From positions 186,001-250,000 of IMG/VR virus record IMGVR_UViG_3300023174_000038: a DNA stretch of 64,000 nucleotides. One strand, written 5' to 3'. The translations under genes were made by a program, and so were the position numbers. Origin of the DNA: a virus. The notes under the pieces are model-generated. The model was not told the DNA's origin, did not search any database, and worked only from the letters and a program-made list of their open reading frames with translations. Positions 2,613 to 60,218 of the stretch are shown here, piece after piece. Position 1 is the first letter of the stretch, and each line of letters begins with the position of its first letter.

Positions 2613-2619
2613 ATAAATA
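2613..2619 (+). promoter_or_regulatory. late-type promoter box ATAAATA, leaderless position
   Basis: ATAAATA ends 4 nt before the ATG at 2624 and no Shine-Dalgarno sequence intervenes. By analogy with T4 late promoters (TATAAATA centred at -10), transcription would begin at the start codon. Confidence 0.55.
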
Positions 2620-2623
2620 TTTT

Positions 2624-2938
2624 ATGTATACAATTTTTAAAAAACAAATAAGGGAGTCATTAAACATCCCTTTTTATTTTGAGAAACATCTTACACCAAA
2701 TGAGTATAAGGTATATTTTCACACTAATTTTGTTGTAAATGAAAAATTTATTTCACATGAAGTAACTTATTCAGAAGATAAATTAATTATTATTGACAAA
2801 TTAGTTTGGTCATCACGTGATGCATTTTTAGATTATGCGTCAGATGCATTTTGTTATGACATATTAATGTTTCCGAATAAAATGTATAATATTAAAAATA
2901 AAATTGCAACAGTAATATCAGTAGAGGGGATATCATAA
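2624..2938 (+). CDS. hypothetical protein, paralogue of 3562-3867
   Basis: This 104-aa protein is not assigned to a family. It aligns along its length with the 101-aa protein at 3562: both have an N-terminal PFY segment, two beta-rich stretches and a C-terminal W-S-S/D-S-x-D...F-P-x-K-x-Y block. Each copy lies immediately before a member of the P450/cupin cluster (cupin A here, P450 there). The size and beta-alpha pattern could fit a small dimeric alpha-beta barrel, but no catalytic residue can be named. Confidence 0.6.
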   Translation: MYTIFKKQIRESLNIPFYFEKHLTPNEYKVYFHTNFVVNEKFISHEVTYSEDKLIIIDKLVWSSRDAFLDYASDAFCYDILMFPNKMYNIKNKIATVISVEGIS

Positions 2939-3528
2939 TGACAATAGGGTTACCAATTTGGAAGACGTTTGAATCCAACGATTTTTTTAAAGATTTACAG
3001 ATCCCTAAAGATTGGGATACATTAGAAGATTTTGTTAATTGGTATATGGAATCTAAAATTCCTATTATGATTCCATGGAATGCTAAAGTTATACGTAGTG
3101 ATGATGCTGTGGCTATTTCTATTTTCAGAAAAGGCCAGTATCAAGTAGAATTTTATTTAGAATATCCTGAAATGTATATACGTAAACATTCACATCCTAG
3201 AATGGAAGTTATAACTATGGATTTGGGTGGAGGAGGATTAACACCTAGAAATGAAAATAATACGTCAAGGATATGGGGTACTGCTTATATGAAATTATTA
3301 GCAGGCGAGTATCATGGTGGTGACACTAGTAGTTTATTAAGTAATGGTTTTTGCACACTTGCATTTCAAAAATGGGAAGATCCTACTGAAATGACTTCTG
3401 CAGCCATTCAATGGAAAGGTGAAATCCAAGGGCCTATTCAAGCAAAACTTATTAAAGATAATGTTAAAACAGCATTAGTTCAGGATAATTATGCAGATGC
3501 TACTGGAATAGATAAAAACAATCAATAA
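2938..3528 (+). CDS. cupin-like protein A of the P450 cluster
   Basis: The 196-aa protein has a probable cupin fold: a strand-rich core with RKHSHPRMEV, a cupin motif-1-like His pair in position to bind metal. It is homologous to the protein at 5018-5587: both share SDDA, F-R-K-G-x-[FY]-Q-V-E, an H-x-H-P motif, an AIQ/AFQ-W segment, W-K-G and a C-terminal YAD. The ATG overlaps the previous stop (TAATG). It could act as an oxygenase, isomerase or binding protein in the cluster's pathway; the substrate is unknown. Confidence 0.6.
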   Translation: MTIGLPIWKTFESNDFFKDLQIPKDWDTLEDFVNWYMESKIPIMIPWNAKVIRSDDAVAISIFRKGQYQVEFYLEYPEMYIRKHSHPRMEVITMDLGGGGLTPRNENNTSRIWGTAYMKLLAGEYHGGDTSSLLSNGFCTLAFQKWEDPTEMTSAAIQWKGEIQGPIQAKLIKDNVKTALVQDNYADATGIDKNNQ

Positions 3529-3533
3529 TTGGA

Positions 3534-3540
3534 CTAAATA
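3534..3540 (+). promoter_or_regulatory. late-type promoter box CTAAATA with leader
   Basis: CTAAATA lies 21 nt before the ATG at 3562, and a GGAG ribosome-binding site sits between. This shows the same box serving an ordinary leadered gene, which supports its reading as a promoter rather than a translation signal. Confidence 0.5.
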
Positions 3541-3561
3541 TTATAACGGAGAAAAACAATC

Positions 3562-3867
3562 ATGTCATACAAAATAACAAGAACAGTAGTCAGACCTAAC
3601 ATCAGCACACCTTTTTATGAAGACCATGCTGATACCACCATTATAGCTTCTTATATTCAAACTACTTACCAGAATACTAATAAAATGATAGAAAAAACTA
3701 CTACAATTAGTGATGATAATTTAACATCTGTTACCGAAATTACCTGGGATTCATCTGATAGTTGGAATGAATTTCTTACTGATAACTATTTAATGACAAC
3801 ATATTTTATGCCTAGTAAAATTTATGAAGGTACACATGGTATGTTTTCTACATTTGTAGGTGCTTAA
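3562..3867 (+). CDS. hypothetical protein, paralogue of 2624-2938
   Basis: The 101-aa protein matches the 104-aa protein at 2624 in its C-terminal block (WDSSDSW...YFMPSKIY against VWSSRDAF...LMFPNKMY). It has a good ribosome-binding site (GGAG, 3548 region) and lies 9 nt before the P450 gene. Function is unknown; duplication within one cluster suggests paired partners for two of the neighbouring enzymes. Confidence 0.6.
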   Translation: MSYKITRTVVRPNISTPFYEDHADTTIIASYIQTTYQNTNKMIEKTTTISDDNLTSVTEITWDSSDSWNEFLTDNYLMTTYFMPSKIYEGTHGMFSTFVGA

Positions 3868-3876
3868 ATTTGATGT

Positions 3877-5016: not shown

Positions 5017-5017
5017 T

Positions 5018-6055: not shown

Positions 6056-6134
6056 ATTTTAGTACTCTCTTTCAATATATTTATTCACATTTAGTACTCA
6101 TATTGATTTTTGGGTCATTTGTTTTTTAAAATGC

Positions 6135-6163
6135 TTGACATTAATTCTTGGCTGTGTTATACT
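6135..6163 (+). promoter_or_regulatory. sigma70-type promoter
   Basis: The sequence has a perfect -35 TTGACA (6135-6140), a 17-bp spacer and a TATACT -10 (6158-6163). It drives a short transcript ending at the terminator near 6427. Confidence 0.75.
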
Positions 6164-6623: not shown

Positions 6624-6775
6624 TAGATAGCGTGAATAGGCAACGAGAGCCGTAATACAGCGCAAAATGTATAGAATGGGCGGACTGAGGCATAAAATCT
6701 GTGGCGGTAACACAGAAAGTCAGAATCAGGCGGAGGTAACGATCTCCGCAGAAAAGGATTTAGTTCCTTTTCTTA
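6624..6775 (+). other. non-coding stretch with nested hairpins
   Basis: No gene is seen. The sequence folds locally: CTGTG/CACAG (loop GCGGTAA) is enclosed by GACT/AGTC, followed by GCGGAG/CTCCGC (loop GTAACGAT), and finally AAAAGGA/TCCTTTT at 6752-6771 with a T-rich tail. The last hairpin probably ends rightward transcripts and overlaps the end of the convergent endonuclease gene. Confidence 0.45.
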
Positions 6776-7374
6776 TATAAATCTCTTTCATTATTGTAAC
6801 GATTGAATTTACGACCTTTAATCCAACCCTGGTCATAATAGTGAGGATAAAGCGCATATGGAATACATTGACTCTTGCTCAAATCAAAGTTTGAAACCCA
6901 GATAGTATTTCCTTTAGCATTTCCTTTCCTTTCTTTTGTCCAACTAAGGCGTTGTCCATGTGAACTGGCCGCTAGGTATTTTTCACGATAAACGGCATCA
7001 TTTAACATTCTATCTCGGTGCTTTAATCCTGCAATCTTAGCAGCCTTGGTTTGCTGTCCCGGTTGATGTCCTTGATTAGGTAATGTGTTTATATAAGAAA
7101 AGGAACCGTGGCCCCCTTCTACTATATTATAAGTAGTGTCTAAACTAACGAAATCCGCGTTTACGACCTGTTTTTCTCTAAATAACATTGATTCTTTGTC
7201 ATTGAAGTGTTCAATGATTTCTTTGACAAAATTCTCTTTACCATATTTTTTGATTGCACGATGAAGATTCAGACCGGATCCAAAGTACCCATCATTTAAG
7301 TCGGAAGTTTGATGAACACCTATATAGATTTTATTATTTAATGTATTGGTGATTTTGTATAGATAATAGAACAT
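6760..7374 (-). CDS. GIY-YIG homing endonuclease
   Basis: The 204-aa protein opens with YLYKITN...KIYIGVHQT, a GIY-YIG nuclease core variant, followed by the conserved Y-G-x-G helix region and the catalytic-type Glu (MLFREKQ). The C-terminal half is basic and likely binds DNA. Such free-standing enzymes are phage mobile genes. The start at 7374 sits 4 nt after a perfect TATAAATA box with no ribosome-binding site. Confidence 0.85.
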   Translation of the reverse strand: MFYYLYKITNTLNNKIYIGVHQTSDLNDGYFGSGLNLHRAIKKYGKENFVKEIIEHFNDKESMLFREKQVVNADFVSLDTTYNIVEGGHGSFSYINTLPNQGHQPGQQTKAAKIAGLKHRDRMLNDAVYREKYLAASSHGQRLSWTKERKGNAKGNTIWVSNFDLSKSQCIPYALYPHYYDQGWIKGRKFNRYNNERDLYKKRN

Positions 7375-7378: not shown

Positions 7379-7386
7379 TATTTATA
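7379..7386 (-). promoter_or_regulatory. late-type promoter TATAAATA, leaderless position
   Basis: An exact T4-late consensus, TATAAATA, is followed by CAAT and then the ATG of the GIY-YIG gene. Predicted initiation falls on the start codon. Confidence 0.65.
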
Positions 7387-11057: not shown

Positions 11058-11064
11058 ATAAATA
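11058..11064 (+). promoter_or_regulatory. late-type promoter box ATAAATA with leader
   Basis: ATAAATA is 19 nt before the HNH start, with GAGGAG between. Confidence 0.45.
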
Positions 11065-11083: not shown

Positions 11084-11425
11084 ATGTGGAAATGTAAAAC
11101 ATGTGAAAAAGAAGGACAGGAACATTTTTATAAAAGCCAAGCTTGGTATTGTAAAAGTTGTTGGAATGTTCGTACGGCACACCGATCTAAAAACAATGTA
11201 AAAATTCTTAAAGAAGAATACGGTGGAAAATGCACCAAGTGTGGTTACAATAAATGCATGGATGCACTACAGTTTCACCATGTTGATCCTACTAAAAAGG
11301 AATTTTCATTAGGGTTAGCAAGACAAAAAAATTTAGATAAACTTAGAAAAGAGATGGACAAGTGTATTTTGGTTTGTAGTAATTGTCATATTGAAATTCA
11401 CCATGACATACATAAAAATAAATAA
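11084..11425 (+). CDS. small HNH endonuclease inserted at a tRNA
   Basis: The 113-aa protein has two CxxC pairs at the N-terminus (CKTC, CKSC), then CTKCGY, the HNH motif FHHVDPTKKEFSL and CILVCSNCHIEIHH. It is a compact zinc-bound HNH nuclease typical of phage mobile genes. The gene is bracketed by the complete tRNA-Arg(TCT) and by a second copy of that tRNA's 3' end, which suggests it arrived by insertion or recombination at the tRNA. Confidence 0.88.
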   Translation: MWKCKTCEKEGQEHFYKSQAWYCKSCWNVRTAHRSKNNVKILKEEYGGKCTKCGYNKCMDALQFHHVDPTKKEFSLGLARQKNLDKLRKEMDKCILVCSNCHIEIHHDIHKNK

Positions 11426-11456: not shown

Positions 11457-12035
11457 TTATTGAATTAGAAGTTGCCAATCTTCATTGCTATAGTGATAAT
11501 CTTCCAACACTTCTAGCATTCTTGCAAAGACAATTAATCCTCTTTTGTGATTAATTAATTCTATTTGATGTAATTTTATCTTCTTTTCAGCAAAAGTTTT
11601 TAATAAATTCTCACCCTCTTTTTTCAACTTAATTTTTTTTGAAACAATATTCAATTTGGCTATTAGATTGTTACATTCTACGATGGCAACAGAGGTTTGT
11701 TGTTGTAATGCACGTATTTCTATTTTCATTTTTAGTATTAAGTCATCAAATTCTGGGTTAATGTGTGGTAGAAATTGTGTTATCATAACAGACAGTCTAC
11801 CAAAGACTTCAGTATTAAGATTGAAGTCATCATAGTGATCACCTGTTGAATCATAGTGTTCACGTTTAGTTGGATCACTTAACACTTCATATGCTAATTT
11901 CATTCGCTTAAACTTTTCTACATCTCCTCCCTTGTCAGGATGATATAATTGTGCCAAGATTCTGTATTTTTGTTTGATTTCTTCAGACGTACAGGTTTTT
12001 GGTAATTCTAAATCATCGTATAGGGAGGTTGTCAT
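11457..12035 (-). CDS. J-domain (DnaJ-like) co-chaperone
   Basis: The 192-aa protein has a J domain at residues 1-70 with the HPD triad at 32-34 (YHPDKGG) and the FKRMKLAYEVLSDPTKREHYD helix. There is no G/F region or zinc finger; the rest is helical and charged, so this is a class III J-protein. It would stimulate a DnaK ATPase, perhaps the phage copy at 53518-55413. The ATG at 12035 is chosen because an ATAAATA box ends 5 nt before it; the open frame reaches 12062. Confidence 0.88.
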   Translation of the reverse strand: MTTSLYDDLELPKTCTSEEIKQKYRILAQLYHPDKGGDVEKFKRMKLAYEVLSDPTKREHYDSTGDHYDDFNLNTEVFGRLSVMITQFLPHINPEFDDLILKMKIEIRALQQQTSVAIVECNNLIAKLNIVSKKIKLKKEGENLLKTFAEKKIKLHQIELINHKRGLIVFARMLEVLEDYHYSNEDWQLLIQ

Positions 12036-12040: not shown

Positions 12041-12047
12041 TATTTAT
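12041..12047 (-). promoter_or_regulatory. late-type promoter box ATAAATA, leaderless position
   Basis: ATAAATA is followed by TTGTT and then ATG of the J-domain gene. Confidence 0.55.
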
Positions 12048-13721: not shown

Positions 13722-13729
13722 TATTTATA
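13722..13729 (-). promoter_or_regulatory. late-type promoter TATAAATA, leaderless position
   Basis: TATAAATA, then CAGT, then ATG at 13717. Confidence 0.6.
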
Positions 13730-14019: not shown

Positions 14020-14184
14020 TTATAGTGCTTGTATAAAAGCAAGTGCTGTTTCAATATTATTGAAGAATTTCATAGTCAATTTGAAATTGTCAACATCAAA
14101 TACCATAATGTAAAATGTATGTTCAGCACTCATTGATAAGTGTATAACAAGTCCTGTTTTCGTGATAGCGTCATATATGTACAT
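14020..14184 (-). CDS. hypothetical protein, 54 aa
   Basis: The frame extends antisense through tRNA-Gly, but an ATAAATA box ending 5 nt before the internal ATG at 14184 marks a likely true start. The product is beta-alpha in character (VIHLSMS...TFYIMVFDVD...). Family unknown. Confidence 0.5.
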   Translation of the reverse strand: MYIYDAITKTGLVIHLSMSAEHTFYIMVFDVDNFKLTMKFFNNIETALAFIQAL

Positions 14185-14189
14185 AAATA

Positions 14190-14196
14190 TATTTAT
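14190..14196 (-). promoter_or_regulatory. late-type promoter box ATAAATA, leaderless position
   Basis: ATAAATA, then TATTT, then ATG at 14184; part of a palindromic ATAAATATATTTAT that touches the first base of tRNA-Gly. Confidence 0.5.
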
Positions 14197-14270
14197 GCGG
14201 GGTTCGTATAGTGGTAATACCTCAGCCTTCCAAGCTGATGCGGAGAGTTCGATTCTCTTACCCCGCTCCA
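14197..14270 (+). tRNA. tRNA-Gly (TCC)
   Basis: Acceptor GCGGGGT/ACCCCGC, anticodon stem CAGC/GCTG with loop CTTCCAA, T73 and CCA. Confidence 0.94.
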
Positions 14271-14274: not shown

Positions 14275-14282
14275 TATAAATA
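14275..14282 (+). promoter_or_regulatory. late-type promoter TATAAATA, leaderless position
   Basis: TATAAATA, then TCAT, then ATG at 14287; no Shine-Dalgarno sequence. Confidence 0.6.
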
Positions 14283-14286: not shown

Positions 14287-14817
14287 ATGAAATTACTATT
14301 TGTGCCATTAGATATAAAAGTCACTGATATCAACTTTGATTTAGGTGAAAAACAAAACTATCACATAAATCATTGGGAAACATTTGATGTTATTGGGAAA
14401 GAAAATAATTATCAAAACTATAACAGTTTATTAAATCAACTTCCAATAACGGATATCACTATCTTTACACATAAGATTCAAAAAACTAAAATTGGACCTC
14501 ATTATGATTATCATGGTTTGCATGATGAATTATATAAACATTTCAAAGAAAATGAGCCAGCCGGCTATCATGTAGTTTTAAAAGGTAAAGGTGACTCATT
14601 AGAAATTTTTAACGGCAAAGAATGGATTAACCCTATATTACCTAAAGTGCCTATAGCATACTTACTAAATTTAACTTCTTGCATACATAGAGTAAAAGAA
14701 GATAATTCAAGAGAAACACTGTATATACAAGGTTGGTTAGATATTAAAAAACATAATCAATTAATAGAACGCAGTTTAAAACAATATGGCAATCTAGCAG
14801 TATATAGCCAAGCTTAA
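14287..14817 (+). CDS. putative 2OG-Fe(II)/aspartyl-hydroxylase-like protein
   Basis: The 176-aa protein has IGPHYDYHG (a possible HxD metal pair) and a second His in TSCIHRVKEDNSRETLYIQGWLD, with an Arg at the position that binds 2-oxoglutarate in related folds. The beta-rich pattern fits a double-stranded beta helix. This is a weaker match than the oxygenase at 10235. It is transcribed alone behind a leaderless late-type box. Confidence 0.5.
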   Translation: MKLLFVPLDIKVTDINFDLGEKQNYHINHWETFDVIGKENNYQNYNSLLNQLPITDITIFTHKIQKTKIGPHYDYHGLHDELYKHFKENEPAGYHVVLKGKGDSLEIFNGKEWINPILPKVPIAYLLNLTSCIHRVKEDNSRETLYIQGWLDIKKHNQLIERSLKQYGNLAVYSQA

Positions 14818-15093
14818 TTATTTACCAATTCTATTTAAAATGTTCATTGCTCTGGTTCTTAACCGTTCAGTAAATTCTGATTCAGTTAATGCTCCTTTAG
14901 CAAGATTACATTTTCTACAAGTTACTTGAAGATTATTATACGTGGTTTCTCCACCTTTACTTTCAGCAATCACATGATCTATGTGTATTTCTTTATCGGA
15001 TAAGTCTTCATCACAATAGACACACCATTTTCCGTCCCTTTCAATAACTCTACGACGTAGGTTAAGAGGGATGTATTGTTTCTTTTGTAGCAT
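14818..15093 (-). CDS. HNH endonuclease
   Basis: The 91-aa protein is almost only the nuclease domain: RRRVIERDG, CVYC, IHIDHVIAESKGG, NNLQVTCRKCNLAKG. This is a standard bacterial/phage HNH with both zinc Cys pairs. It is convergent with the preceding gene and starts 5 nt after a CTAAATA box. Confidence 0.9.
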   Translation of the reverse strand: MLQKKQYIPLNLRRRVIERDGKWCVYCDEDLSDKEIHIDHVIAESKGGETTYNNLQVTCRKCNLAKGALTESEFTERLRTRAMNILNRIGK

Positions 15094-15098: not shown

Positions 15099-15105
15099 TA
15101 TTTAG
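15099..15105 (-). promoter_or_regulatory. late-type promoter box CTAAATA, leaderless position
   Basis: CTAAATA, then AATTT, then ATG at 15093. Confidence 0.5.
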
Positions 15106-17585: not shown

Positions 17586-18806
17586 TCATCTGACTATTTG
17601 ATTGTTAGAATAATCTTGTAGATACATACGACCTCTAGGTACTCTATTCTTTACAGCGTATTTTTCTAGGTCTTGCATAGCTTGTTGTTGTGTTTTATTT
17701 ACTGCGGTTGCAACTTGCCTTCCTGCATTATATATTCTCCAATCACTTATACGTGGACCTTCAGGTTCAGTAGGTTGTGTTGCTTGAGTTGGTTCAGGTT
17801 CAGCTGGTTGATTTACAAAAACATTATCATCCGGTGGTATATCCTTGCTCGGTGCACCTGGGGTTGATTTATAACTTTGAGGGAATTTTGCTACTATTTG
17901 TTTGGCAGCTTCTCTAACATCATATCCGTCAGGTGGACTAATTTCTTTACTACCGGCTTTTACTTCACCAGCTTTTGTAAGTATTGCTTTAACAATTTCT
18001 TTCATTAATCCGGGAAATCTTTTAGCAAACTCAGCATCAGCGCCAACTCTATTATATCTTTGATCCTGTGTACTATTTACAAGTTGACTAGTAGGTGCAT
18101 GTAATTGCCACTTTCCATTTTTATTATCAATGTTTTGTTTATCAACAATACTAACGATAGGACCATCAGGAGCATAATTATTAAACCAATTTAATCCACT
18201 AGATCCACCTGTACAGAAGTTACTCATGTGTCCTGTTTGGTTATTAAATGTATAACAAGCACCGTAGTTCAATGGCATGATAACATGAAATCTATCATTA
18301 TCTAGTAATACAATTTCTTTTCTATTACGTTTATGCTTTTCTAATGCTTCAGCATCTTTAATTCTTCGTAGAGTATTACGATACTCATCTTTTCCCATTG
18401 CCTGTTGTAATGCCCGTATACTAGGAAACTTATTAAAGTCTTGATCTGGCTTCTGTAATAAACCACGTGTACTTAATGCTTGCCATGCACCTAATGCATC
18501 TCCGCCCTCACCATTCAAATCTTCATAATCTATAGCATGATTGTTATATAGTTTTAATAACCAATTATCAAACTTACCTTCTTTGCTCAAATCACCATAC
18601 TCATTTTTAGCTAGTGTTTGATTAACTAATTTACTCCAAGATTGAACATAATCAGCGACTGTGGGTCTTGGACCCATATCTGCTATTTCATTTTTAGGGA
18701 ATGTCCTATCATGTCTGACAGCAATAGCTAACATTTTTGCTAGCTTTGGGTCCTTCATTATATTAGTACCTATATTAGCTTCTGTTAAAAAGTGTGTTGC
18801 TCTCAT
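17586..18806 (-). CDS. phage protein with probable capsid-targeting N-terminus
   Basis: The 406-aa protein is of unknown family. A central region (FCTGGSSGLNWFNNYAPDGP...VSIVDKQN...WQLHAP) resembles a domain seen in several phage proteins. A Pro/Glu/Thr-rich linker lies at about 320-355 and a basic C-terminal segment follows. The N-terminus, MRATHF-LTE-A, fits a short targeting peptide ending in the L-x-E site of T4-type prohead protease. Its start overlaps the stop of the 300-aa gene, so both belong to one operon. A virion-packaged role is inferred. Confidence 0.6.
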   Translation of the reverse strand: MRATHFLTEANIGTNIMKDPKLAKMLAIAVRHDRTFPKNEIADMGPRPTVADYVQSWSKLVNQTLAKNEYGDLSKEGKFDNWLLKLYNNHAIDYEDLNGEGGDALGAWQALSTRGLLQKPDQDFNKFPSIRALQQAMGKDEYRNTLRRIKDAEALEKHKRNRKEIVLLDNDRFHVIMPLNYGACYTFNNQTGHMSNFCTGGSSGLNWFNNYAPDGPIVSIVDKQNIDNKNGKWQLHAPTSQLVNSTQDQRYNRVGADAEFAKRFPGLMKEIVKAILTKAGEVKAGSKEISPPDGYDVREAAKQIVAKFPQSYKSTPGAPSKDIPPDDNVFVNQPAEPEPTQATQPTEPEGPRISDWRIYNAGRQVATAVNKTQQQAMQDLEKYAVKNRVPRGRMYLQDYSNNQIVR

Positions 18807-19708
18807 TATACTAAACTCCTTTTTAGATAAGCAAGAACCGCACTTAATTTCTGTCTATCTCCGTTAGCTATATCTGACAACACTTTTGTAGGACCGTCAT
18901 TCTTTTCTGATGATAAACTACTATCACGATATCTATAACCACTGGTTACATTACCTGTTAATTCTGGATAGTAATATCTTGCCGTTAAAACTATACTATT
19001 GTTTACAGCACTAGTAAGTAATTCAGTCATGGCACCATTATCTAAACCTTCAATTGCCTGATCAATTAATTTTACCTGATCAATTTTCTTATCTACTTTG
19101 TGATGAGCATCATTTTTTGCCATACTAGCAATAACGCCATTAATATCAGCTTTAGAAGCAATTAGTATTTTCTTAAAAAGTGGTTTGAATCGTTTGGTTA
19201 ATTTATTCGTAGTAGTAAAGCCTGCAGGCTCTGGTTTATTGCTAGCACGATCCTGGCGTAATTGTTTAGAGTACTCACTATCCATGAAGTAAAATTTTCT
19301 AGCATCACCTACAATCTTTTTTAACAAACTATTAGCATCGGTAACATTGTCTGCAAAGGTAGAATATACCATATTGCCCTCATCAGGATCAGGTTTACCG
19401 TTACTAGCGAATATTTGATATGAACCAGACCTTGATGCTCTTCTTCCATAGCTATCGGATACCATAAATCTTACTGCGCCGAATCCTTTATTACCTGCTA
19501 TTAATAACCATGTCCCGGGATGATCTTTTAGATCAGTCCATTTGGGTCTGACCGCAGGTTCAGGCTGAATATCATGACCAAAAGCTTCTTTAGAGTGTAA
19601 CTGTTTTAATATTTCTTGTGCACCTGGCCCGGTAAATTGAGCCATAGCTGTACTGGCTTCTGAAACTATGCTTTCGCATAATTGTGAAAAATACTTATAA
19701 TTATCCAT
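18806..19708 (-). CDS. hypothetical phage protein, 300 aa
   Basis: No family recognised. The N-terminus (MDNYKYFSQLCESIVSEAS) again looks like a capsid-targeting leader ending in V-S-E. The middle holds a beta-rich segment (TWLLIAGNKGFGAVRFMVSD) and the C-terminal half is helical and basic. It is first gene of the pair with 17586-18806 and has a leaderless late-type box. Confidence 0.6.
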   Translation of the reverse strand: MDNYKYFSQLCESIVSEASTAMAQFTGPGAQEILKQLHSKEAFGHDIQPEPAVRPKWTDLKDHPGTWLLIAGNKGFGAVRFMVSDSYGRRASRSGSYQIFASNGKPDPDEGNMVYSTFADNVTDANSLLKKIVGDARKFYFMDSEYSKQLRQDRASNKPEPAGFTTTNKLTKRFKPLFKKILIASKADINGVIASMAKNDAHHKVDKKIDQVKLIDQAIEGLDNGAMTELLTSAVNNSIVLTARYYYPELTGNVTSGYRYRDSSLSSEKNDGPTKVLSDIANGDRQKLSAVLAYLKRSLV

Positions 19709-19713: not shown

Positions 19714-19720
19714 TATTTAT
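19714..19720 (-). promoter_or_regulatory. late-type promoter box ATAAATA, leaderless position
   Basis: ATAAATA, then CATAT, then ATG at 19708. Confidence 0.55.
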
Positions 19721-19729: not shown

Positions 19730-20320
19730 TTATTTACGTCCTATAATCATATATCGTTTATAGCCATTAGTCTCATATTGTATGTTTGTAACACCGGAAT
19801 ATATCAAATTACTTAAATTAAACCGATTAACTAACTCATCTAAACTATCGGTTGTTTGTTTTATAAACCAAGGGAATTCAGGATCTTTCATATTAGTAGT
19901 TTGAATACATACCAATTTTCCTTTTGGAACTGAATCATACCATTTATTACTATCCATTTGGTCTATACTACAGTTAATAAAAATGCTATTAATACAGTTA
20001 CTAAAATCATAGTCATTAACGTCCTGTACATGATTATAAACTCTAGGTAATTCATATTTCCACATATTACATATTTTATTAGCATTAGTTATTGCTTCTG
20101 GATTTATATCATAACCATGAACCTCATAATAGAATGTAGGGTTACGTGTAAGTAGCATAAATGCTAATAGATTATCCCAGCACCCTAGAATATGTAATGA
20201 GGGTATGCTAATACATTCACGATGTATAGCGTTTTCTAGTTCCTCACATAGCCATAGTTTGCTTTTAATCAATCCATGATAAAAGGATTCATGTGTATCA
20301 AATTTAGTTGAATTTGTCAT
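19730..20320 (-). CDS. methyltransferase-like (Rossmann) protein
   Basis: The 196-aa protein has a SAM-fold start LHILGCWDNLLAFMLL, and YEVHGYDINPEAITNANKIC where motif II normally places an acidic residue on the ribose. IFINCSID follows. Motif I has GCW instead of GxG, so SAM binding is plausible but not sure. It overlaps the PP-loop gene upstream by 17 nt and is presumably its pathway partner. Confidence 0.6.
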   Translation of the reverse strand: MTNSTKFDTHESFYHGLIKSKLWLCEELENAIHRECISIPSLHILGCWDNLLAFMLLTRNPTFYYEVHGYDINPEAITNANKICNMWKYELPRVYNHVQDVNDYDFSNCINSIFINCSIDQMDSNKWYDSVPKGKLVCIQTTNMKDPEFPWFIKQTTDSLDELVNRFNLSNLIYSGVTNIQYETNGYKRYMIIGRK

Positions 20321-21209
20321 TTTCAGTTACCGTTGTATTTAATAGTGTTTTGATAGTATTATTCCATTTAATGTGAGATTTAGTAAGTTTTAATTGTTTA
20401 ATTAAATCTATTTTATATTTTAATAAATTGAATTTTGACGTTTTATGATTTTCCCAACCATAACTTCTTAGTCTGGGTTTTAATTCAGGGTACATAGTTT
20501 GATACATACGTGATTTAAAATTGGATACATCTTCTCCTAGTACATAATTATCCAAATGTATTTGTATTAGTTTACTACTAGATTCTAAACTATATCCGAT
20601 CATATTACCTATACCGTGTATACCGTTATCAGTCATAAACCGTTCATAACTGGCAAACTCTAGTCTAAAAGGTGATAATACTTTATTTGGAATGTGTGTT
20701 TGCGGCCAAGGCCAATCTCCCCCTATAATAGGGAAATAATTACATTGTTCAATTAACCATAAATGTGTTGCTACATGAGGTTCTATGATATAATAAGGTG
20801 TCAAATAGGACAAATGTTTCCCATTCTCAAAAAATTTATCAGCATCTAATTCAACCAGTTTATGAGTTATATTATTTTCTCTACAAAATTTTTCAGCATA
20901 ATATAAATCATGGGTATTAATGATTAACCCTTCTATTTTAATCATCAATGTGATAGCTATTACCGGTATATTGTTTTTTAAACAGTATAACAATACTAAT
21001 TCACTATCTAATCCACCACTATATAATACCTCTACATATTTGGTCTGTCTGTTGGATAAATGGTCATTAAATATATCCGTAATATCACGCCCATATTCAA
21101 ATGGCACATCTAATAATTCTGTGGTAAATCTATGATAATTTTCTCCTAATTCTAGGGTACATTTCTTAAAATCATTTAATCCAACAGTCCATTCAATAAC
21201 ATTTTCCAT
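20304..21209 (-). CDS. PP-loop ATPase, asparagine-synthase-like domain (third copy)
   Basis: The 301-aa protein carries the PP-loop SGGLDS at residues 64-69 after a strand (VEVLY) and an internal GGDWPW segment. Like the two at 498-2589 it lacks a glutaminase domain. It is operonic with the methyltransferase-like gene and transcribed from a CTAAATA box 5 nt before the ATG. It may adenylate a carboxylate to be amidated and methylated, which is inference. Confidence 0.75.
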   Translation of the reverse strand: MENVIEWTVGLNDFKKCTLELGENYHRFTTELLDVPFEYGRDITDIFNDHLSNRQTKYVEVLYSGGLDSELVLLYCLKNNIPVIAITLMIKIEGLIINTHDLYYAEKFCRENNITHKLVELDADKFFENGKHLSYLTPYYIIEPHVATHLWLIEQCNYFPIIGGDWPWPQTHIPNKVLSPFRLEFASYERFMTDNGIHGIGNMIGYSLESSSKLIQIHLDNYVLGEDVSNFKSRMYQTMYPELKPRLRSYGWENHKTSKFNLLKYKIDLIKQLKLTKSHIKWNNTIKTLLNTTVTENDKFN

Positions 21210-21214: not shown

Positions 21215-21221
21215 TATTTAG
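21215..21221 (-). promoter_or_regulatory. late-type promoter box CTAAATA, leaderless position
   Basis: CTAAATA, then TTATC, then ATG at 21209. Confidence 0.5.
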
Positions 21222-35993: not shown

Positions 35994-36000
35994 TATTTAT
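35994..36000 (-). promoter_or_regulatory. late-type promoter box ATAAATA, leaderless position
   Basis: ATAAATA, then TATGT, then ATG at 35988. Confidence 0.55.
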
Positions 36001-38058: not shown

Positions 38059-38065
38059 TACTTAT
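38059..38065 (-). promoter_or_regulatory. variant late-type box ATAAGTA, leaderless position
   Basis: ATAAGTA, then TTGAT, then ATG at 38053; one base from the common box. Confidence 0.35.
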
Positions 38066-38619
38066 CTAGTTAGATAGGGGGCATAAATCTTTTCTAGTGA
38101 ATTAATAGTATGCTCAGTATTTTCATCCTCATGCTTAACAGCAATGCCACCTGCATTACTCCAAAGATTTAAATACTTACCATAATCATCTACTAAGACA
38201 TTTGGCTCACTATTACTCAATGCGTATTTGTGTTTATGTTGAGTAAAGATAGCATTTTGTGTAGCATTTGGATTGTGTTCATCTAACCAATCTTTTTTAG
38301 CTTCTACACTAGCACTAGCATATGGTCCACGTAATGGGGCACTTAATACAGTATATGGAATTTTATGTTGATTTAACCATTGTACAACTTTGCCTCCGCC
38401 TTGAAGAGGTTTTAGTTCTCTAAAAAACTTATATACTTCTTCAGGGCTACTTGAAGCTAACTCATTTATTGATGTTTCAGTATCAGGAATCTCTTTGTAA
38501 TTACCAACATTATGTTTTGCGGCCCAAGCCCCAAAGAAATCAGCTTGTACTCCATCCATATCTAAGTATAGATGCGGCATCTTTTTGTTTGTATTTTCCA
38601 TCAATTCCTTAAGTTTCAT
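38062..38619 (-). CDS. HAD-family 5'(3')-deoxyribonucleotidase-like phosphatase
   Basis: The 185-aa protein has HAD motif I LYLDMDGV (two catalytic Asp), motif II Ser in TVLSAP, a Lys in the middle and motif IV in VLVDDYGKYLNLW. This is the layout of NT5C-type nucleotidases that dephosphorylate dNMPs. The N-terminus (MKLKE-LME-N) resembles the capsid-targeting, L-x-E-ended leaders seen elsewhere in this genome. Confidence 0.8.
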   Translation of the reverse strand: MKLKELMENTNKKMPHLYLDMDGVQADFFGAWAAKHNVGNYKEIPDTETSINELASSSPEEVYKFFRELKPLQGGGKVVQWLNQHKIPYTVLSAPLRGPYASASVEAKKDWLDEHNPNATQNAIFTQHKHKYALSNSEPNVLVDDYGKYLNLWSNAGGIAVKHEDENTEHTINSLEKIYAPYLTR

Positions 38620-38626
38620 TTAGCTA

Positions 38627-39163
38627 TTATATCACAAACGGTATAATAAGCCAAATGCCTTGGGCTAATAGTAATGAACCAAATATACTAACTCCAATAC
38701 TACCCCAATACATACGTTTATCTACAGCTAGAATACTAGCAGATAATAACACAATAGCTAATTGAAATGCCATTGCGGCAAATGTTAACCATGGCGTATG
38801 CTTTTTGGCTTCATCACGTTCACTTTCAATCTGTAATGCTTTAGCCATTAACTCTTTCTTGCCCTCACCTTTAGCCGGATCACTTTCATAACGGTCAATC
38901 TTAGCTTGTAATATTTCTTTACGTTTTATATCGGTAGTAGCTTCTAATTGCCCTTCAGCAATACTTTGCTTGATAGATTTTGCTTGGTAAAAGTTCCAAG
39001 TATCATTTGCTTTGATAGTGTTACTTAATATTTTACCACTAAATCCACTAGACATATAGGTTGTAATTGCTAATAATAGTGCAATGACAGTAATTACCCA
39101 TCCTGCTCTATCTTTAATTTGTGCTTCACGTTCACTGCGTGATAATGTTTTTACTTCTGCCAT
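38627..39163 (-). CDS. DUF4337-like membrane protein
   Basis: The 178-aa protein has one N-terminal and two C-terminal transmembrane helices around a helical domain with NTIKANDTWNFYQAKSIKQSI, the DUF4337 hallmark. Function unknown; bacterial relatives are inner membrane proteins. AAAGGAAA ribosome-binding site. Confidence 0.75.
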   Translation of the reverse strand: MAEVKTLSRSEREAQIKDRAGWVITVIALLLAITTYMSSGFSGKILSNTIKANDTWNFYQAKSIKQSIAEGQLEATTDIKRKEILQAKIDRYESDPAKGEGKKELMAKALQIESERDEAKKHTPWLTFAAMAFQLAIVLLSASILAVDKRMYWGSIGVSIFGSLLLAQGIWLIIPFVI

Positions 39164-42806: not shown

Positions 42807-43343
42807 TTAATCCCAAAGTGCTCTAAAATATTTACCAAACAGATCCAAACCTTCTTGGATACGATCTTCATGTAGTTGATGCCCTTCAGCATCATACCAA
42901 TGTGCGTCAGGATCTTTATCAACCATTTGAAATGTATCTTCTACTTTACCTGTTATAGGATTGGGGTATGTTTTATCAGTTTTAATCCAATCATAGTCAC
43001 TTTTGCCATGATGATATTTGTCACCATAATCTTCAAATGCAATTTGGTGAAAAGCCCAAATCATTTTGTCTAGTGTTTCATCCCAACGTTTAGCACCTTC
43101 TTCCCATGCCTCATCGTGTGATTCAATATAGAAATCAAAACTTTGTTGTGTACTATATTCTTCTCCGCCAACATCTACAAAATCACTGGGGATACCCTGT
43201 TTAGTTTGTTTTAGTTGAATTAATGCCGGATAGATAATAGTAGCTAGCGTGTGGTCTGTACTCCAAGTATCAAATCTATCAATTTGTACATTGATTTTTC
43301 TACGATTACCTTTTCTAGGGTAATTGCCAATATTTATTTTCAT
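42807..43343 (-). CDS. conserved phage hypothetical, 178 aa
   Basis: The protein has IDRFDTWSTDHTLATIIYPALIQLK at the start, a W-rich helix (RWDETLDKMIWAFHQIAFED) and a C-terminal helix (IQEGLDLFGKYFRALW). It is a known conserved phage type without a function. Overlaps the previous gene by 4 nt. Confidence 0.7.
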   Translation of the reverse strand: MKINIGNYPRKGNRRKINVQIDRFDTWSTDHTLATIIYPALIQLKQTKQGIPSDFVDVGGEEYSTQQSFDFYIESHDEAWEEGAKRWDETLDKMIWAFHQIAFEDYGDKYHHGKSDYDWIKTDKTYPNPITGKVEDTFQMVDKDPDAHWYDAEGHQLHEDRIQEGLDLFGKYFRALWD

Positions 43344-43666
43344 ACTTTTTCAGTTACCTTGCCTTCAATAAATGCAACAAAATAATCTCCGTGCTTTACT
43401 GTAGCATATTCAATTTTCTTGTATTCTCTACTTAGTTGTGCTAGTTGCTCCAATGAATTACCTTGACAAATAAAATCGTTTGTTTCACGGTCATATAACA
43501 AAATAATATCATCTACTAATTCTGTTTCTAATTTATAAACATTAGGTTTAGTTACTTCTTCAACAATGATAAATGAACGTAAGTTTTTACGTAGTTTATA
43601 CATTGTGTAGAACTCACCCATAACCCATCCTAGGGCTAGTATAAGAATGATATCAAGTAGTGTCAT
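43340..43666 (-). CDS. membrane-anchored phage protein, 108 aa
   Basis: One N-terminal transmembrane helix (LLDIILILALGWVMGEFYTMY) followed by a small alpha/beta domain (YKLETELVDDIILLYDRETNDFICQG...LAQLSREYK). First gene of its operon, starting 5 nt after an ATAAATA box. Role unknown. Confidence 0.7.
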   Translation of the reverse strand: MTLLDIILILALGWVMGEFYTMYKLRKNLRSFIIVEEVTKPNVYKLETELVDDIILLYDRETNDFICQGNSLEQLAQLSREYKKIEYATVKHGDYFVAFIEGKVTEKV

Positions 43667-43670: not shown

Positions 43671-43952
43671 TTATTTATTGATAGTTAAGTTAGACCATTT
43701 CTTTAATTTCTTAAACTTATTCTTTTTAGCCTGATCTAAACCTTCAACTGTAATACCCACATTGTTATCTGTAATCAATTCAACCATGGCCAGCAAGTCA
43801 CCCAATTCTTCTTCAAGCATTTGGATATTAGTCATTGGCTTATTAGGTTTCATTTGATCTGGACCGAACCTAAAACACTTGCTAACAGCTTGTGTAACCT
43901 CGGCACATTCCTCTTGTAAGATTAGTAGTATTTCTCTTGTATCTTCGTTCAT
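43671..43952 (-). CDS. MazG-like nucleotide pyrophosphohydrolase
   Basis: The 93-aa protein has the metal-binding EECAEVTQAVSK and EELGD motifs of the MazG/all-alpha NTP pyrophosphatase fold. It would hydrolyse NTPs or dNTPs, or lower alarmone-type signals. It lies beside dCMP deaminase and overlaps the next gene by 4 nt. Confidence 0.85.
   Translation of the reverse strand: MNEDTREILLILQEECAEVTQAVSKCFRFGPDQMKPNKPMTNIQMLEEELGDLLAMVELITDNNVGITVEGLDQAKKNKFKKLKKWSNLTINK
43672..43678 (-). promoter_or_regulatory. late-type promoter box ATAAATA, leaderless position
   Basis: ATAAATA, then ATATT, then ATG at 43666. Confidence 0.5.
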
Positions 43953-51007: not shown

Positions 51008-51499
51008 TTAACATTTATCAAAACGTTGATGTTTAAACCAACGTTTACGACCGTGTCCTAATTTCAATGAAATTCCATGTTTGGCTAACCTTTCACGATG
51101 TGCGTAAAAGCTAGGACCATGACTCATTATTCTGTCCTTACCCTCACGTTCACGTTTTTCCCCGTCAATATCCCATTGATATTGATGAACCATTTCATGT
51201 GCTAGAGTAGTGATTAACCATTGTTTACAGAACCATTTGTCCATAAGACGGATTTTACAATAGGTTTTACGATATTTGACTATTTCATAACTAGCAAAGC
51301 ACATGCCCCAGTATTTTCTACAGCGGGCCGTAACCTCAATTTCAGGCATGTTCAACTTATTGTTAAAGCATGCCTGATTGATTATTTTATATAGTTCTAT
51401 TACTTCAGCTACATTTGTTCGGTAGCTTAGACGTTTTTGGTAACCGATACTTGGTAGCGGTTCACGCATTAGTTTGGAAAGTTCGGATTTTTTTGTCAT
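51008..51499 (-). CDS. SprT-like zinc metalloprotease
   Basis: The 163-aa protein has HEMVHQYQ (HExxH) in the middle, a third zinc His in SHGPSFYAHRERLAKHG, and the WGMCFASYE region usual for SprT/Spartan. SprT-like proteases are linked to DNA-protein crosslink repair. Leaderless start behind ATAAATA. Confidence 0.85.
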   Translation of the reverse strand: MTKKSELSKLMREPLPSIGYQKRLSYRTNVAEVIELYKIINQACFNNKLNMPEIEVTARCRKYWGMCFASYEIVKYRKTYCKIRLMDKWFCKQWLITTLAHEMVHQYQWDIDGEKREREGKDRIMSHGPSFYAHRERLAKHGISLKLGHGRKRWFKHQRFDKC

Positions 51500-51503: not shown

Positions 51504-51510
51504 TATTTAT
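51504..51510 (-). promoter_or_regulatory. late-type promoter box ATAAATA, leaderless position
   Basis: ATAAATA, then CAGT, then ATG at 51499. Confidence 0.55.
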
Positions 51511-55521: not shown

Positions 55522-55740
55522 TTAATACAACTTTTTAGGCAATTGCTGGTCACGCAAATATTTGTCCCAACGTCTTTTAGCCTGACTTTTAGCTAGTTTA
55601 CGTTTAACTGTAGGTTTCACAAATTCTTGTCGGTCACGGGTTTCTTGTAAAGTACCATAATCTGTAATCATTTTCTTGAACTTACGTAAGGCCTTTTCTG
55701 TATTTCCGTCATTAACTAAAACTTTGCGTCCTCTAATCAT
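55522..55740 (-). CDS. rpsU: ribosomal protein S21
   Basis: The 72-aa basic protein has the S21 pattern: RGRKVLVNDGNTEKALRKFKKM and a C-terminal Lys/Arg-rich helix (KRKLAKSQAKRRWDKYLRD). S21 helps the 30S subunit bind mRNA initiation regions. Phages are known to encode S21, thought to redirect ribosomes toward phage mRNA. It overlaps clpX by 4 nt. Confidence 0.93.
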   Translation of the reverse strand: MIRGRKVLVNDGNTEKALRKFKKMITDYGTLQETRDRQEFVKPTVKRKLAKSQAKRRWDKYLRDQQLPKKLY

Positions 55741-56942
55741 ATTGCGGCTTTTGGCTGTAAAATTTGCTCCTGATTAATATTTATCTTTTTAATGTTGTTT
55801 TCACGGTACTTCTTAGTGTTATACATATGAGGCATTAAAACCTTCTCAATCTCTGTATGTAAACCACGAGCACCGGTCTTTAATTTCATTGTATTTTCAG
55901 CTAACTGAGAAATAGCATCTTCTGTAAAATTTAACTCAATATCATCTAAACTTAATAGATACTTATATTGGTCGATATAGTTGTTTTTAACTTTTGTCAG
56001 GACCTGAACCATTTCGTCTTTTGTAAGATTTTCAACATTTACTGTAGTAGTAAAACGTCCGATGAATTCAGGAATCATACCAAATCGTGTTAAATCATCC
56101 GGGCTAACCATAGATAAATCACCCTCTTTGCGGGAGTCCTTAATATCAGCACCAAATCCAATACTAGTTCCATTGATACGATTGTTAACAATATCCTTTA
56201 ATCCAACAAATGCACCACCGGCAATGAATAGAATGTTCTTTGTATTAACCTCAATCATATCACCACTAGGATGCTTACGTCCTCCACCAGCTGGGATACG
56301 ACATGTTGTACCCTCAACCATCTTTAATAGTGCTTGTTGTACACCTTCGCCGGATACGTCACGGGTAATACTTGCACCTTCGCTTTTACGGGCAATTTTG
56401 TCAATCTCATCAACAAACACAATACCACGTTCTGCCAGTTTAGCATCACCACCGGCAGCATTAACTAGCATACTAATCATTGATTCAACATCATCACCTA
56501 CATATCCAGCCTCGGTCAAGCTAGTAGCATCAGCAACAATAAAGGGCACTTCTAAGTATTTTGCTACAGTTTTAGCTAATAGTGTTTTACCTGAACCTGT
56601 TGGTCCAATTAATAATACGTTACCTTTTTGTATTTCTAAGTCTTTTGGCGGATTATTAATACGTTTATAGTGATTAGCAATAGCTACACTAAGAACCATT
56701 TTAGCATTAATTTGACCAATAATATGTTGGTCTAAAAATTCTTTAATAGTTTCCGGATCATATCTTATATGGTCTTTGTTTATTGAATCTTCGGAATTGT
56801 TATTTTCATCAACCATTAATTGAGTACATAACTCAATACAGTCGCTACAGATAGCAACATCTTCTCCGACAATTAATTTATTTACGACATCTTTATGATT
56901 GCCGCAAAATGAGCAATGGCTTAATTTTGTTTCTGTTGACAT
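55737..56942 (-). CDS. clpX: ATP-dependent protease ATP-binding subunit ClpX
   Basis: The 401-aa protein has the N-terminal zinc domain (Cys10, 13, 32, 35), Walker A GPTGSGKT (113-120), Walker B VFVDEIDKI, the pore loop GYVG, the RKH loop and the ClpP-docking IGF loop (SIGFGAD). All parts needed to unfold substrates and feed ClpP are present. Together with phage ClpP it may form a phage-specific protease or mix with the host's. An ATAAGTA box lies 5 nt before the ATG. Confidence 0.97.
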   Translation of the reverse strand: MSTETKLSHCSFCGNHKDVVNKLIVGEDVAICSDCIELCTQLMVDENNNSEDSINKDHIRYDPETIKEFLDQHIIGQINAKMVLSVAIANHYKRINNPPKDLEIQKGNVLLIGPTGSGKTLLAKTVAKYLEVPFIVADATSLTEAGYVGDDVESMISMLVNAAGGDAKLAERGIVFVDEIDKIARKSEGASITRDVSGEGVQQALLKMVEGTTCRIPAGGGRKHPSGDMIEVNTKNILFIAGGAFVGLKDIVNNRINGTSIGFGADIKDSRKEGDLSMVSPDDLTRFGMIPEFIGRFTTTVNVENLTKDEMVQVLTKVKNNYIDQYKYLLSLDDIELNFTEDAISQLAENTMKLKTGARGLHTEIEKVLMPHMYNTKKYRENNIKKININQEQILQPKAAI

Positions 56943-56947
56943 ACTAA

Positions 56948-56954
56948 TACTTAT
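56948..56954 (-). promoter_or_regulatory. variant late-type box ATAAGTA, leaderless position
   Basis: ATAAGTA, then TTAGT, then ATG at 56942. Confidence 0.35.
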
Positions 56955-56955
56955 C

Positions 56956-57963: not shown

Positions 57964-57965
57964 AA

Positions 57966-58601
57966 TCAATTACCGAATTTTTTACGCAATTGATTAGAAA
58001 CTTGTTCGGATTCTTTATCCCAACGAATTGTTACAGCAACTTCTTGTGGACCAACTATCTCTTGTTTGATAACCTTAAATCCACGCAAGATACCTTGAGC
58101 ATTAACACGAATGGTCTCGTTTAATTGATAAGCAGTATCATTGCTGTTTTCACGCACAGAATGATTTGTATCTTTTTCTGCATCTGTATCACTCATTGCA
58201 ACAACTTCTCCTGTTGTTGTGCGTGACTTCATTCGGTCGCTTGCTTTCTCAACGTTCTTGGCAAGTGTGTTAGTTACACGTGTGCTAGAAACATCTTCCT
58301 GAATAAAGTGACGTACATTTGCACGGGCACGATCACCTGCACGAATTAATGCAGTACGGCGATTGTTATCAGTGTTGCCATTTGAACTTGCAGTACCGAC
58401 TGATTCAATACTAGTGATTGCACAATTTGATTTGTCCCATGAATACCAAGCGCAATCAGTTTCAATACGAATTGTATCTTGTTTAAATGATGTGGAAAGC
58501 TTTTGATTACGGATCTGCTCAAATTCGCCTTCACCGCGTTTCATACTAGAACAGCCCACTAATGAGAGAGCAGTTACTAAAGCCAATAATTTGAAATTCA
58601 T
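57966..58601 (-). CDS. lipoprotein, 211 aa
   Basis: The signal MNFKLLALVTALSLVGC ends in a lipobox with the Cys followed by Ser. The mature part has a single disulfide-type Cys pair (ETDCAWYSWDKSNCAI) and a helix with RAGDRARANVRHF. The start at 58601 has GGAG upstream; an earlier ATG-like start at 58649 falls in the promoter. It precedes the second lipoprotein gene with 2 nt between. Confidence 0.72.
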   Translation of the reverse strand: MNFKLLALVTALSLVGCSSMKRGEGEFEQIRNQKLSTSFKQDTIRIETDCAWYSWDKSNCAITSIESVGTASSNGNTDNNRRTALIRAGDRARANVRHFIQEDVSSTRVTNTLAKNVEKASDRMKSRTTTGEVVAMSDTDAEKDTNHSVRENSNDTAYQLNETIRVNAQGILRGFKVIKQEIVGPQEVAVTIRWDKESEQVSNQLRKKFGN

Positions 58602-58630
58602 TTCAATCTCCGATAAGTTAAGATATGTGT

Positions 58631-58659
58631 ATATTAACACAATAGCCAATTATTGTCAA
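58631..58659 (-). promoter_or_regulatory. sigma70-type promoter for the lipoprotein pair
   Basis: - strand TTGACAATAATTGG, 17-bp spacer, TAATAT (58636-58631), a variant of the repeated module. Confidence 0.75.
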
Positions 58660-60207
58660 TTATTTTTGATTCTTTAGGAACAATTCTATCTGTTCTTTTT
58701 CATTTTCGGACAACAAATCAAGGTCATATTCGCCCTTTTCTATCTTTTCAACCAAATATTTGATGTATTTTTGGTTATGTAGATAGGTATCCGACTGTTC
58801 CTTTTGAACCTCAATCCATTTGCGACTGTCATACTTATAAACACGGTTTGGTAATGCATCTACACGTACAAATACATCACCTTTATTAGCAACATTTGGG
58901 AATTTTATACCAAAATTTGTATTAATTGTACGTTGACTATCAGCGGTTAACATAAAGATATCTGGACGCAAACTCTTTAATGCTTCCATTTGATAATGCT
59001 TATCTTCAAACATTACATAACCACCATCTAATTCCTTATAAGGTTTTTCGGGTTCAATTGTTACTTCAGTATCTTTTACTTCAAATACCGATTCTTCTAC
59101 TACTTCTTCTTTTGTAGCAACCATTGGCTTAGTATCAAAACTTACAAATGGTTTACTTAAGTAAGGATGTTTTTCTAATAAAGATTTTGGTTCTTCTGGT
59201 TCTTCAAAGGGTCCGTCCTTTACATCACAATTTTTATTTGGACAGAATAAACCTATACCGGGTGCATTAACCAACTCAGTATCGCACATATAACAGTTAA
59301 TAGGATGTTTGGGAGTTCCAGCCATTGCAACAATTTGTTTAATTTGTTCATCGGTTAATGGACCGTCATCAGGTTCATATGCTGGTTCTGTGACAGTGGG
59401 AGTTGATATTGGTTCAGTCCCTAGAGGGCTGTCACCCTCCTCATCCCATTCTTTACTTGCATTAGCGGCAAGAACAAGCGCAATAGCTAATGGATCAAAT
59501 ACAATAACAAGTAAAATAATAACCCAACGTACCGCACTCTCTAACATATTGTTATCAGCATTATCACCATAAATCAATGCGGCAATATATTTGATAGGAC
59601 CAACTTCTGCTTCTACTTTGCGATTCTCTGCCGCAATAGGTGCTCGTTCTTCATTAAGTTTAGCAATTTCTTTCTGTGCATCACCAATATCTTTTTGCAG
59701 TTTACTACGTTCACCGGCTTGTTGTCTACGAATTTGTACCGCACGTTCAGCACTATTCTCGCTATCACCACGACTTAATCGTTGGTCAACTTGATTATCC
59801 ATTTGAGTTAATGCTTTACGTGCTAACTCAATATTGTCTCGTTGTGTTTTAATCTTTTCATCATACAAAGATAATTTGTCTTGACTATCACCAGTACTGA
59901 TGCCATGCTCCATGTGAGCTTTACTTAAGAAGCCAAATATACCCATACTTGTTAGTAATGCTAATGCAATAACGGCAGGTACAAGATAGAGTTTGAGTAA
60001 GAAACCTGCACGACCCCAGTACTTACGTAGCCAAACGGTTGTGGTGATCTTTCCTATTTCAAGGATACCTCCCATAATGATAACGGGAATAACCGCACCT
60101 GCAAAGATAGCGGTTAAGCCGATAATACTATACCAGGCAGCTACCGAACTAAGTGATAGTGCTACTAATAGTGTAAGATTTGAGAATGATAAAAATTTAA
60201 GGCGCAT
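58660..60207 (-). CDS. large membrane protein with coiled coil and zinc ribbon
   Basis: The 515-aa protein has about three N-terminal transmembrane helices, a ~90-residue coiled coil (KIKTQRDNIELARKAL...KLNEERAPIAAENRKVEAEV), another helix (VRWVIILLVIVFDPLAIALVLAA), and a cytoplasmic tail with a zinc ribbon (CYMC...CPNKNC) and acidic linkers. Similar proteins occur in other large phages; unassigned. Leaderless behind CTAAATA. Confidence 0.75.
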   Translation of the reverse strand: MRLKFLSFSNLTLLVALSLSSVAAWYSIIGLTAIFAGAVIPVIIMGGILEIGKITTTVWLRKYWGRAGFLLKLYLVPAVIALALLTSMGIFGFLSKAHMEHGISTGDSQDKLSLYDEKIKTQRDNIELARKALTQMDNQVDQRLSRGDSENSAERAVQIRRQQAGERSKLQKDIGDAQKEIAKLNEERAPIAAENRKVEAEVGPIKYIAALIYGDNADNNMLESAVRWVIILLVIVFDPLAIALVLAANASKEWDEEGDSPLGTEPISTPTVTEPAYEPDDGPLTDEQIKQIVAMAGTPKHPINCYMCDTELVNAPGIGLFCPNKNCDVKDGPFEEPEEPKSLLEKHPYLSKPFVSFDTKPMVATKEEVVEESVFEVKDTEVTIEPEKPYKELDGGYVMFEDKHYQMEALKSLRPDIFMLTADSQRTINTNFGIKFPNVANKGDVFVRVDALPNRVYKYDSRKWIEVQKEQSDTYLHNQKYIKYLVEKIEKGEYDLDLLSENEKEQIELFLKNQK

Positions 60208-60211
60208 CTAA

Positions 60212-60218
60212 TATTTAG
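60212..60218 (-). promoter_or_regulatory. late-type promoter box CTAAATA, leaderless position
   Basis: CTAAATA, then TTAG, then ATG at 60207. Confidence 0.5.

Follow-up and report, generated by a model that had tools for sequence, protein, structure and literature searches.

Late-type promoter boxes fused to start codons suggest leaderless mRNAs in a clade of large freshwater phages

We examined a 64,000-nucleotide (nt) stretch of viral DNA (the window; bases 186001-250000 of the 348,701-base virus record IMGVR_UViG_3300023174_000038, here G000), in which a box resembling the late promoter of phage T4 lies 4-5 nt before the ATG of many genes. These genes are very probably transcribed by the host RNA polymerase into leaderless mRNAs, from gp55-type and sigma70-type promoters that are fused to the AUG. 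A first-pass annotation of the window had put forward the leaderless interpretation; it is supported here by a sharp spacing peak, conservation in relatives, restriction to one lineage, and a gp55-like sigma factor. By the late box, promoter and start codon are fused at about 6-9% of genes, and by the sigma70 box at a further 1-3%. The sigma70-type promoters, which the annotation had missed, appear to form a parallel set fused to ATG and are new here.

We counted the late box as TAAATA or TAAGTA and the gap as the number of nt between box and ATG, with gene starts picked by a coding model blind to upstream sequence. The 13 [A/C]TAAATA-N4/5-ATG sites and two ATAAGTA variants listed by the annotation are all present at the positions and spacing it gave. 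Twelve of these 15 starts lie in supported genes: the coding model accepts 10 (14287 on the plus strand; 15093, 19708, 21209, 35988, 38053, 43666, 51499, 56942, and 60207 on the minus strand), and family matches back two more on the minus strand, 7374 (GIY-YIG) and 12035 (DnaJ). Starts 2624 (plus), 13717 (minus), and 14184 (minus) have no independent gene support. Family searches also matched the gene types that had been named, namely superoxide dismutase, SprT-like protein, and homing nucleases. The boxes are as follows.

7379..7385, minus strand: late box ATAAATA, gap 4 to the ATG of 6760-7374, a GIY-YIG homing endonuclease.
12041..12047, minus strand: late box, gap 5 to ATG 12035 of 11457-12035, a DnaJ-domain protein.
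14276..14282, plus strand: late box, gap 4, gene 14287-14817; the G001 orthologue (68% identity) keeps box and gap.
15099..15105, minus strand: late box CTAAATA, gap 5 to the ATG of 14818-15093, an HNH endonuclease.
19714..19720, minus strand: late box, gap 5 to the ATG of 18806-19708.
21215..21221, minus strand: late box CTAAATA, gap 5, gene 20304-21209; conserved in the G002 orthologue.
35994..36000, minus strand: late box, gap 5 to the ATG of 35434-35988, an Fe/Mn superoxide dismutase.
38059..38065, minus strand: late box variant ATAAGTA, gap 5, gene 37868-38053, MazE-like; the G001 orthologue has gap 4.
43672..43678, minus strand: late box, gap 5 to the ATG of 43340-43666.
51504..51510, minus strand: late box, gap 4 to the ATG of 51008-51499, SprT-like.
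56948..56954, minus strand: late box variant ATAAGTA, gap 5 to the ATG of 55737-56942, a ClpX-like AAA protein.
60212..60218, minus strand: late box CTAAATA, gap 4 to the ATG of 58660-60207.
2613..2619, plus strand: late box, gap 4, before 2624-2938, an open reading frame (ORF) of 104 amino acids (aa) that has no family match and that the coding model rejects.
13722..13728, minus strand: late box, gap 4 to ATG 13717 of an unsupported 60 aa ORF.
14183..14197, both strands: palindromic TAAATATATTTA, whose minus-strand box has gap 5 to ATG 14184 of an unsupported 54 aa ORF.

The plus-strand copy of the box in TAAATATATTTA ends 7 nt before a tRNA-Gly gene at 14197 and is possibly a late promoter for it.

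The window has 17 matches to TAAATAN{4,5}ATG, whereas dinucleotide shuffles give 5.73 ± 2.16 (largest 12, n = 100), while MTAAATA alone occurs 54 times against 67 expected; it is thus the position of the box, not its abundance, that is non-random. Across all of G000, 29 of 315 gene starts carry the late box at gap 4-5, compared with 2.1 in shuffles. Four relatives, also jumbo phages from freshwater, gave similar counts: 29/364 in G001 (first 400 kb), 31/364 in G002, 21/351 in G012, and 12/174 in G003 (200 kb), with shuffle means of 0.9-2.2 over the five genomes. G012 (41% GC) was looked at only once the pattern was already defined. TAAATA boxes in G000 number 10 at gap 4 and 15 at gap 5, with few at 0-3 or 6-16 and more at 17-24. 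In the full record, ATG stands 4-5 nt after 10.7% of the TAAATA hexamers; for the 14 anagrams of TAAATA the figure is 3.1-6.9%, and the anagram with the highest value, ATAAAT, overlaps the box. Near-identical hexamers such as TAAATT and TAATTA have no peak at this gap in G000.

We counted the same feature in five comparison phages (T4, RaK2, PA5oct, S-PM2, and Atu_ph07, with RaK2, PA5oct, and Atu_ph07 as 200-kb samples). Gap 4-5 late-box genes number 0 in T4, RaK2, S-PM2, and Atu_ph07 and 2 in PA5oct, a count within the range reached by shuffles. None of the 168 T4 starts has TAA[AG]TA at gap 4-5, and T4 boxes mostly lie 23-28 nt before ATG. The peak is present in the freshwater clade and absent from the comparison phages, which makes it a trait of the clade and not of gp55-type phages generally. 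AT-rich DNA could in principle place boxes near ATG by chance, with the starts then selected by the annotation; in favor of this account, the GC content of the genome is 36% and the window holds no surplus of the box. The annotation had named a distance distribution like that of random AT-rich sequence as refuting its reading; the sharp 4-5 nt peak, kept in relatives, differs from this expectation, and with the shuffles, the anagram controls, the agreement of five genomes, and the footprint in orthologues all against it, the probability that chance explains the pattern is practically nil.

The box consensus in these phages is GATAAATA and not TATAAATA, the T4 form that the annotation had invoked. 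A box of the TATAAATA type is recognizable from its ATAAATA core (TAAATA is preceded by A in 64-79%), and promoter position -13 is more often G than T. The extended consensus GATAAATAc (G at -2 and A at -1 of the hexamer, C after) is the same in the gap 4-5 and gap 17-24 classes, so that one element appears to be used at two distances, the farther of which leaves room for a Shine-Dalgarno (SD) sequence. The annotation had offered the genes at 3562, 11084, 36054, and 39634 as leadered examples with good ribosome-binding sites; these were confirmed, except that the SD of 36054 lies about 16 nt from its ATG. Two of them serve as the comparison class.

3534..3540, plus strand: leadered late box with SD, gap 21, gene 3562-3867.
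11058..11064, plus strand: leadered late box with GAGGAG SD, gene 11084-11425.

Outside the window, at G000 181826-181846, two divergent genes start 21 bp from one another, and both have their late box in a shared ATTTATAAATA that sits inside an inverted repeat, GTATTGCAT...ATGCAATAC. Such spacing, with a box for each start, leaves no space for two leaders.

The T4 late box spans -13 to -6, and A for T at -13 also occurs in T4 (PMC2988020). Because the box ends at -6, a gap of 5 would place +1 on the A of ATG. In sigma70 promoters TATAAT occupies -12 to -7, a geometry in which gap 6 would make +1 the start codon. Exact TATAAT does peak at gap 6, in 6, 5, 8, 4, and 4 genes of the five genomes, and several of these genes have TTGACA-like -35 elements 16-18 bp upstream; TATAAT at gap 5-6 was found in none of the five comparison phages. 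The late box peak at 4-5 and the TATAAT peak at 6, each with its own distance from -10 to +1, would therefore lead to the same RNA start. The window holds one example.

38626..38631, minus strand: sigma70-type -10 TATAAT, gap 6, gene 38062-38619, with TTGGCT 17 bp upstream; similar in G001 and G002.

An alternative is that the box acts in translation, as an AU-rich enhancer or an S1 site, on longer mRNAs that begin farther upstream, and that it resembles a late promoter by coincidence. The box does occupy the usual place of the SD, and many starts without an SD also have no box. This explanation must contend with the occurrence of the same extended motif 17-24 nt upstream, where an SD lies between motif and ATG, and with a TATAAT peak that is shifted by 1-2 nt, in agreement with promoter geometry, and often accompanied by a -35 element. 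It would also have to explain why TAAATA ranks above every one of its anagrams at this gap while TAAATT and TAATTA have no peak in G000, and why nothing comparable is found in T4, RaK2, PA5oct, S-PM2, or Atu_ph07. We regard a translation signal as improbable.

The nucleotide before the start codon bears on where transcription would begin. The base at -1 is A in 12-13% of late-box genes and in 54% of SD genes (P 2e-18); for T the figures are 43-68% and 27%. Initiation usually prefers T(-1)A(+1), and depletion of A with enrichment of T at -1 is expected if the ATG is +1. Transcripts might instead begin a few nt upstream of the ATG or inside it, leaving 1-3 nt leaders or an incomplete AUG and thus calling for a short-leader or internal translation start. 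In line with this, the gap varies from 4 to 5, some orthologues of the PDDEXK gene have gap 7 to a second in-frame ATG, and T4 late starts are defined here to about 1 nt. The bias at -1 favors a start on the A of ATG, and for most orthologues the alignment reaches the first codon. An alternative ATG with an SD within 30 codons is present in 2 of the 29-31 genes, no more than in other genes, which counts against internal starts; on the same count, we rejected mis-called starts as a source of the pattern. We give a start displaced by a few nt little probability. Translational coupling was also rejected, since the distance to the upstream same-strand gene has a median of 21-58 nt for box genes compared with 3.5-11 nt for other genes.

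Spacing is kept in orthologues. Median protein identity between G000 and its G001 or G002 orthologues is 73-75%, and among reciprocal best hits with aligned N-termini, genes with gap 4-5 in one genome have gap 4-5 in the other in 13/16 (G000-G001), 10/10 (G000-G002), and 15/15 (G001-G002) cases. Four genes have many relatives (35-59 distinct relatives per gene). Their box stands at gap 4-5 in 39/45 for 58660-60207, 31/59 for the clpX-like gene (55737-56942), 28/35 for the SprT-like gene (51008-51499), and 25/40 for the PDDEXK gene, as against 17/583 for 16 other genes taken as contrast. In the alignments, exceptions among clpX relatives mostly have GATAAATT at the same place, and those among PDDEXK relatives usually carry one more ATG in frame. 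Identity is mostly 60-96% in box columns and mostly 20-60% in the flanks; the spacing is kept at about 50-97% protein identity while the flanks diverge.

The annotation had noted that its box genes have no SD, and this held for the whole record, with 0 among the 29-31 genes at gap 3-6. At gap 4-5, an SD is present in 0/29 genes in G000, 0/29 in G001, 1/31 in G002, 0/21 in G012, and 0/12 in G003, compared with 40-48% of other genes per genome. Start codons at gap 4-5 in three genomes are 95 ATG and 1 GTG/TTG; other genes also start nearly always with ATG, so GTG/TTG usage does not discriminate.

The gp55-like sigma factor that the annotation had suggested looking for is encoded in the same genome, at G000 86506-87417 (phrog_12791, E 3.2e-71; T4 gp55, E 2.3e-5; PDB 7d7c gp55, E 2.1e-4). 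In the mechanism we propose, host RNA polymerase would carry either this phage late sigma, for late genes, or the main sigma of the host, for sigma70-type boxes. The holoenzyme would recognize a -10 element whose end lies 4-6 nt from the ATG, and would initiate on the A of ATG, yielding an mRNA without a 5' leader whose 5'-AUG the ribosome would read directly (leaderless initiation). At other genes the same late box would lie 17-24 nt upstream, together with a normal SD.

Several observations weigh against this proposal. Both the transcript 5' ends and the leaderless mode of translation are ones that we infer from sequence. Because the box takes up most of the place of an SD, the absence of an SD is partly automatic. 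Among uncoupled starts without an SD in G000 (n = 75), the two boxes explain 28, and 47 have neither. When a -35 element is required, the sigma70 peak is marginal in G000 (P 0.07) and G001 (P 0.045), though clear in G002, and the preference for T at -1 is missing, unexplained, in the 27 sigma70 gap-6 genes (A at -1 in 48%). A few clpX relatives have the box 18-25 nt upstream (18-20 nt in L258, L260, L261, L263, and L267) and no SD; gap 4-5 is thus not indispensable there, and the leaderless model leaves unexplained these genes, which may use a third mode of initiation. Finally, another homologue that the annotation had named, a gp45-type clamp, gave no match to phrog_223, PF02916, or PF09116, families that divergent clamps could escape.

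Outside the window, one gap-5 late-box gene (G000 284983-285936, minus strand) encodes a sigma-70 region 4 protein (PF04545, E 8e-19), a possible second transcription factor. The window also encodes a ribosomal protein next to the clpX-like gene.

55522..55740, minus strand: gene for ribosomal protein bS21; it overlaps the end of the putatively leaderless clpX-like gene.

The bS21 gene overlaps or adjoins clpX in 72/80 relatives; a link to leaderless translation is only an idea. G001 (IMG/VR contig 3300027749_002876, 524,565 bp) carries two clpX loci (L223 and L227) on one contig and may be a chimera or contain a duplication; G009, a 170,963-bp contig, repeats part of G001 at a fixed offset.

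The window contains 25 tRNA genes and genes for homing endonucleases, a ClpX-like AAA protein, superoxide dismutase, DnaJ, SprT, and ligase. Box genes with family matches are of accessory or mobile types, and encode superoxide dismutase, DnaJ, SprT, ClpX-like, fatty acid desaturase, GNAT, metallophosphoesterase, glutamine amidotransferase-like, MazE-like, and PD-DEXK proteins and HNH and GIY-YIG nucleases. Many leadered late genes start with ATGGCN and include very long ORFs, consistent with their encoding structural proteins. It is conceivable, if rather doubtful, that translation runs in two channels from the same sigma, with structural genes on SD-leadered late mRNAs and accessory, takeover, and mobile genes leaderless, and that ribosome composition, through the phage bS21 encoded just behind the clpX-like gene, shifts the balance during infection.

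Judged by late sigma, the cultured phages closest to this one are PA5oct, RaK2, CBB, Atu_ph07, and Phosso (35-40% identity), and closer relatives in IMG/VR number in the hundreds, with 443 sigma loci. A search with superoxide dismutase gave a single genomic relative, located on a contig of a Polaromonas metagenome-assembled genome (57% identity, bacterial-looking neighbor genes), a weak betaproteobacterial lead that is too little to name a host. Freshwater huge phages described earlier encode bS21, tied to late-stage translation and located in the terminase/capsid region, and their hosts are predicted to be Bacteroidetes (PMC9723584). The present phages resemble them in being large, freshwater, and bS21-encoding, and differ in that bS21 overlaps or adjoins clpX, not the terminase/capsid region. 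Use of SD and TTGACA/TATAAT sequences would speak against a Bacteroidetes host.

Like T4 late promoters, which depend on gp55, gp33, and gp45, the system has an 8-bp TATA box at -10 and a phage-encoded gp55-type sigma, and uses leadered genes with an SD as well; unlike them, it has mostly G, not T, at -13, many boxes 4-5 nt before ATG, and no recognized gp45-type clamp. In the literature searched, which excluded subscription journals, we found no leaderless T4-type late transcripts. To our knowledge, leaderless mRNAs are usually considered uncommon among phages transcribed by the RNA polymerase of the host. The leaderless case of lambda is a single transcript, and late mRNAs of phiKZ are largely leaderless. 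Lambda is noted as a case of a leaderless phage mRNA (PMC3160421), and the phiKZ late promoter is TATG, with G as the start (PMC5312081). The mRNAs proposed here would likewise start at or near AUG; phiKZ uses its own multisubunit RNA polymerase, unlike the host polymerase with a gp55-type sigma that we propose. Another parallel is offered by TA-led leaderless genes of bacteria, which in Deinococcus-Thermus have a -10 motif beside the ORF (PMC12340547; survey PMC3160421); in D. radiodurans this motif lies ~6-7 bp upstream of the ORF and works as a promoter. The five genomes share with them a position-specific -10 (late box at gap 4-5, TATAAT at gap 6) a few nt upstream, no SD, an AUG start, and a predicted +1 at the start codon. 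They differ in that the bacterial genes use the housekeeping sigma of the cell, whereas here a late sigma of the phage would serve most of the promoters and sigma70 a smaller number, and SD sequences are widely used.

Leaderless genes with a -10 beside the ORF are already known; the clade-wide conserved late-box form and its sigma70 extension are new. A whole clade, common in freshwater metagenomes, appears to use leaderless mRNAs for about a tenth of its genes, with promoter-codon spacing that is precise over wide divergence. Exact gene starts and 5' ends follow from the model, which metatranscriptomes or E. coli reporters could put to the test, and the clade, with its many independent loci, would offer a natural system in which to study leaderless translation.

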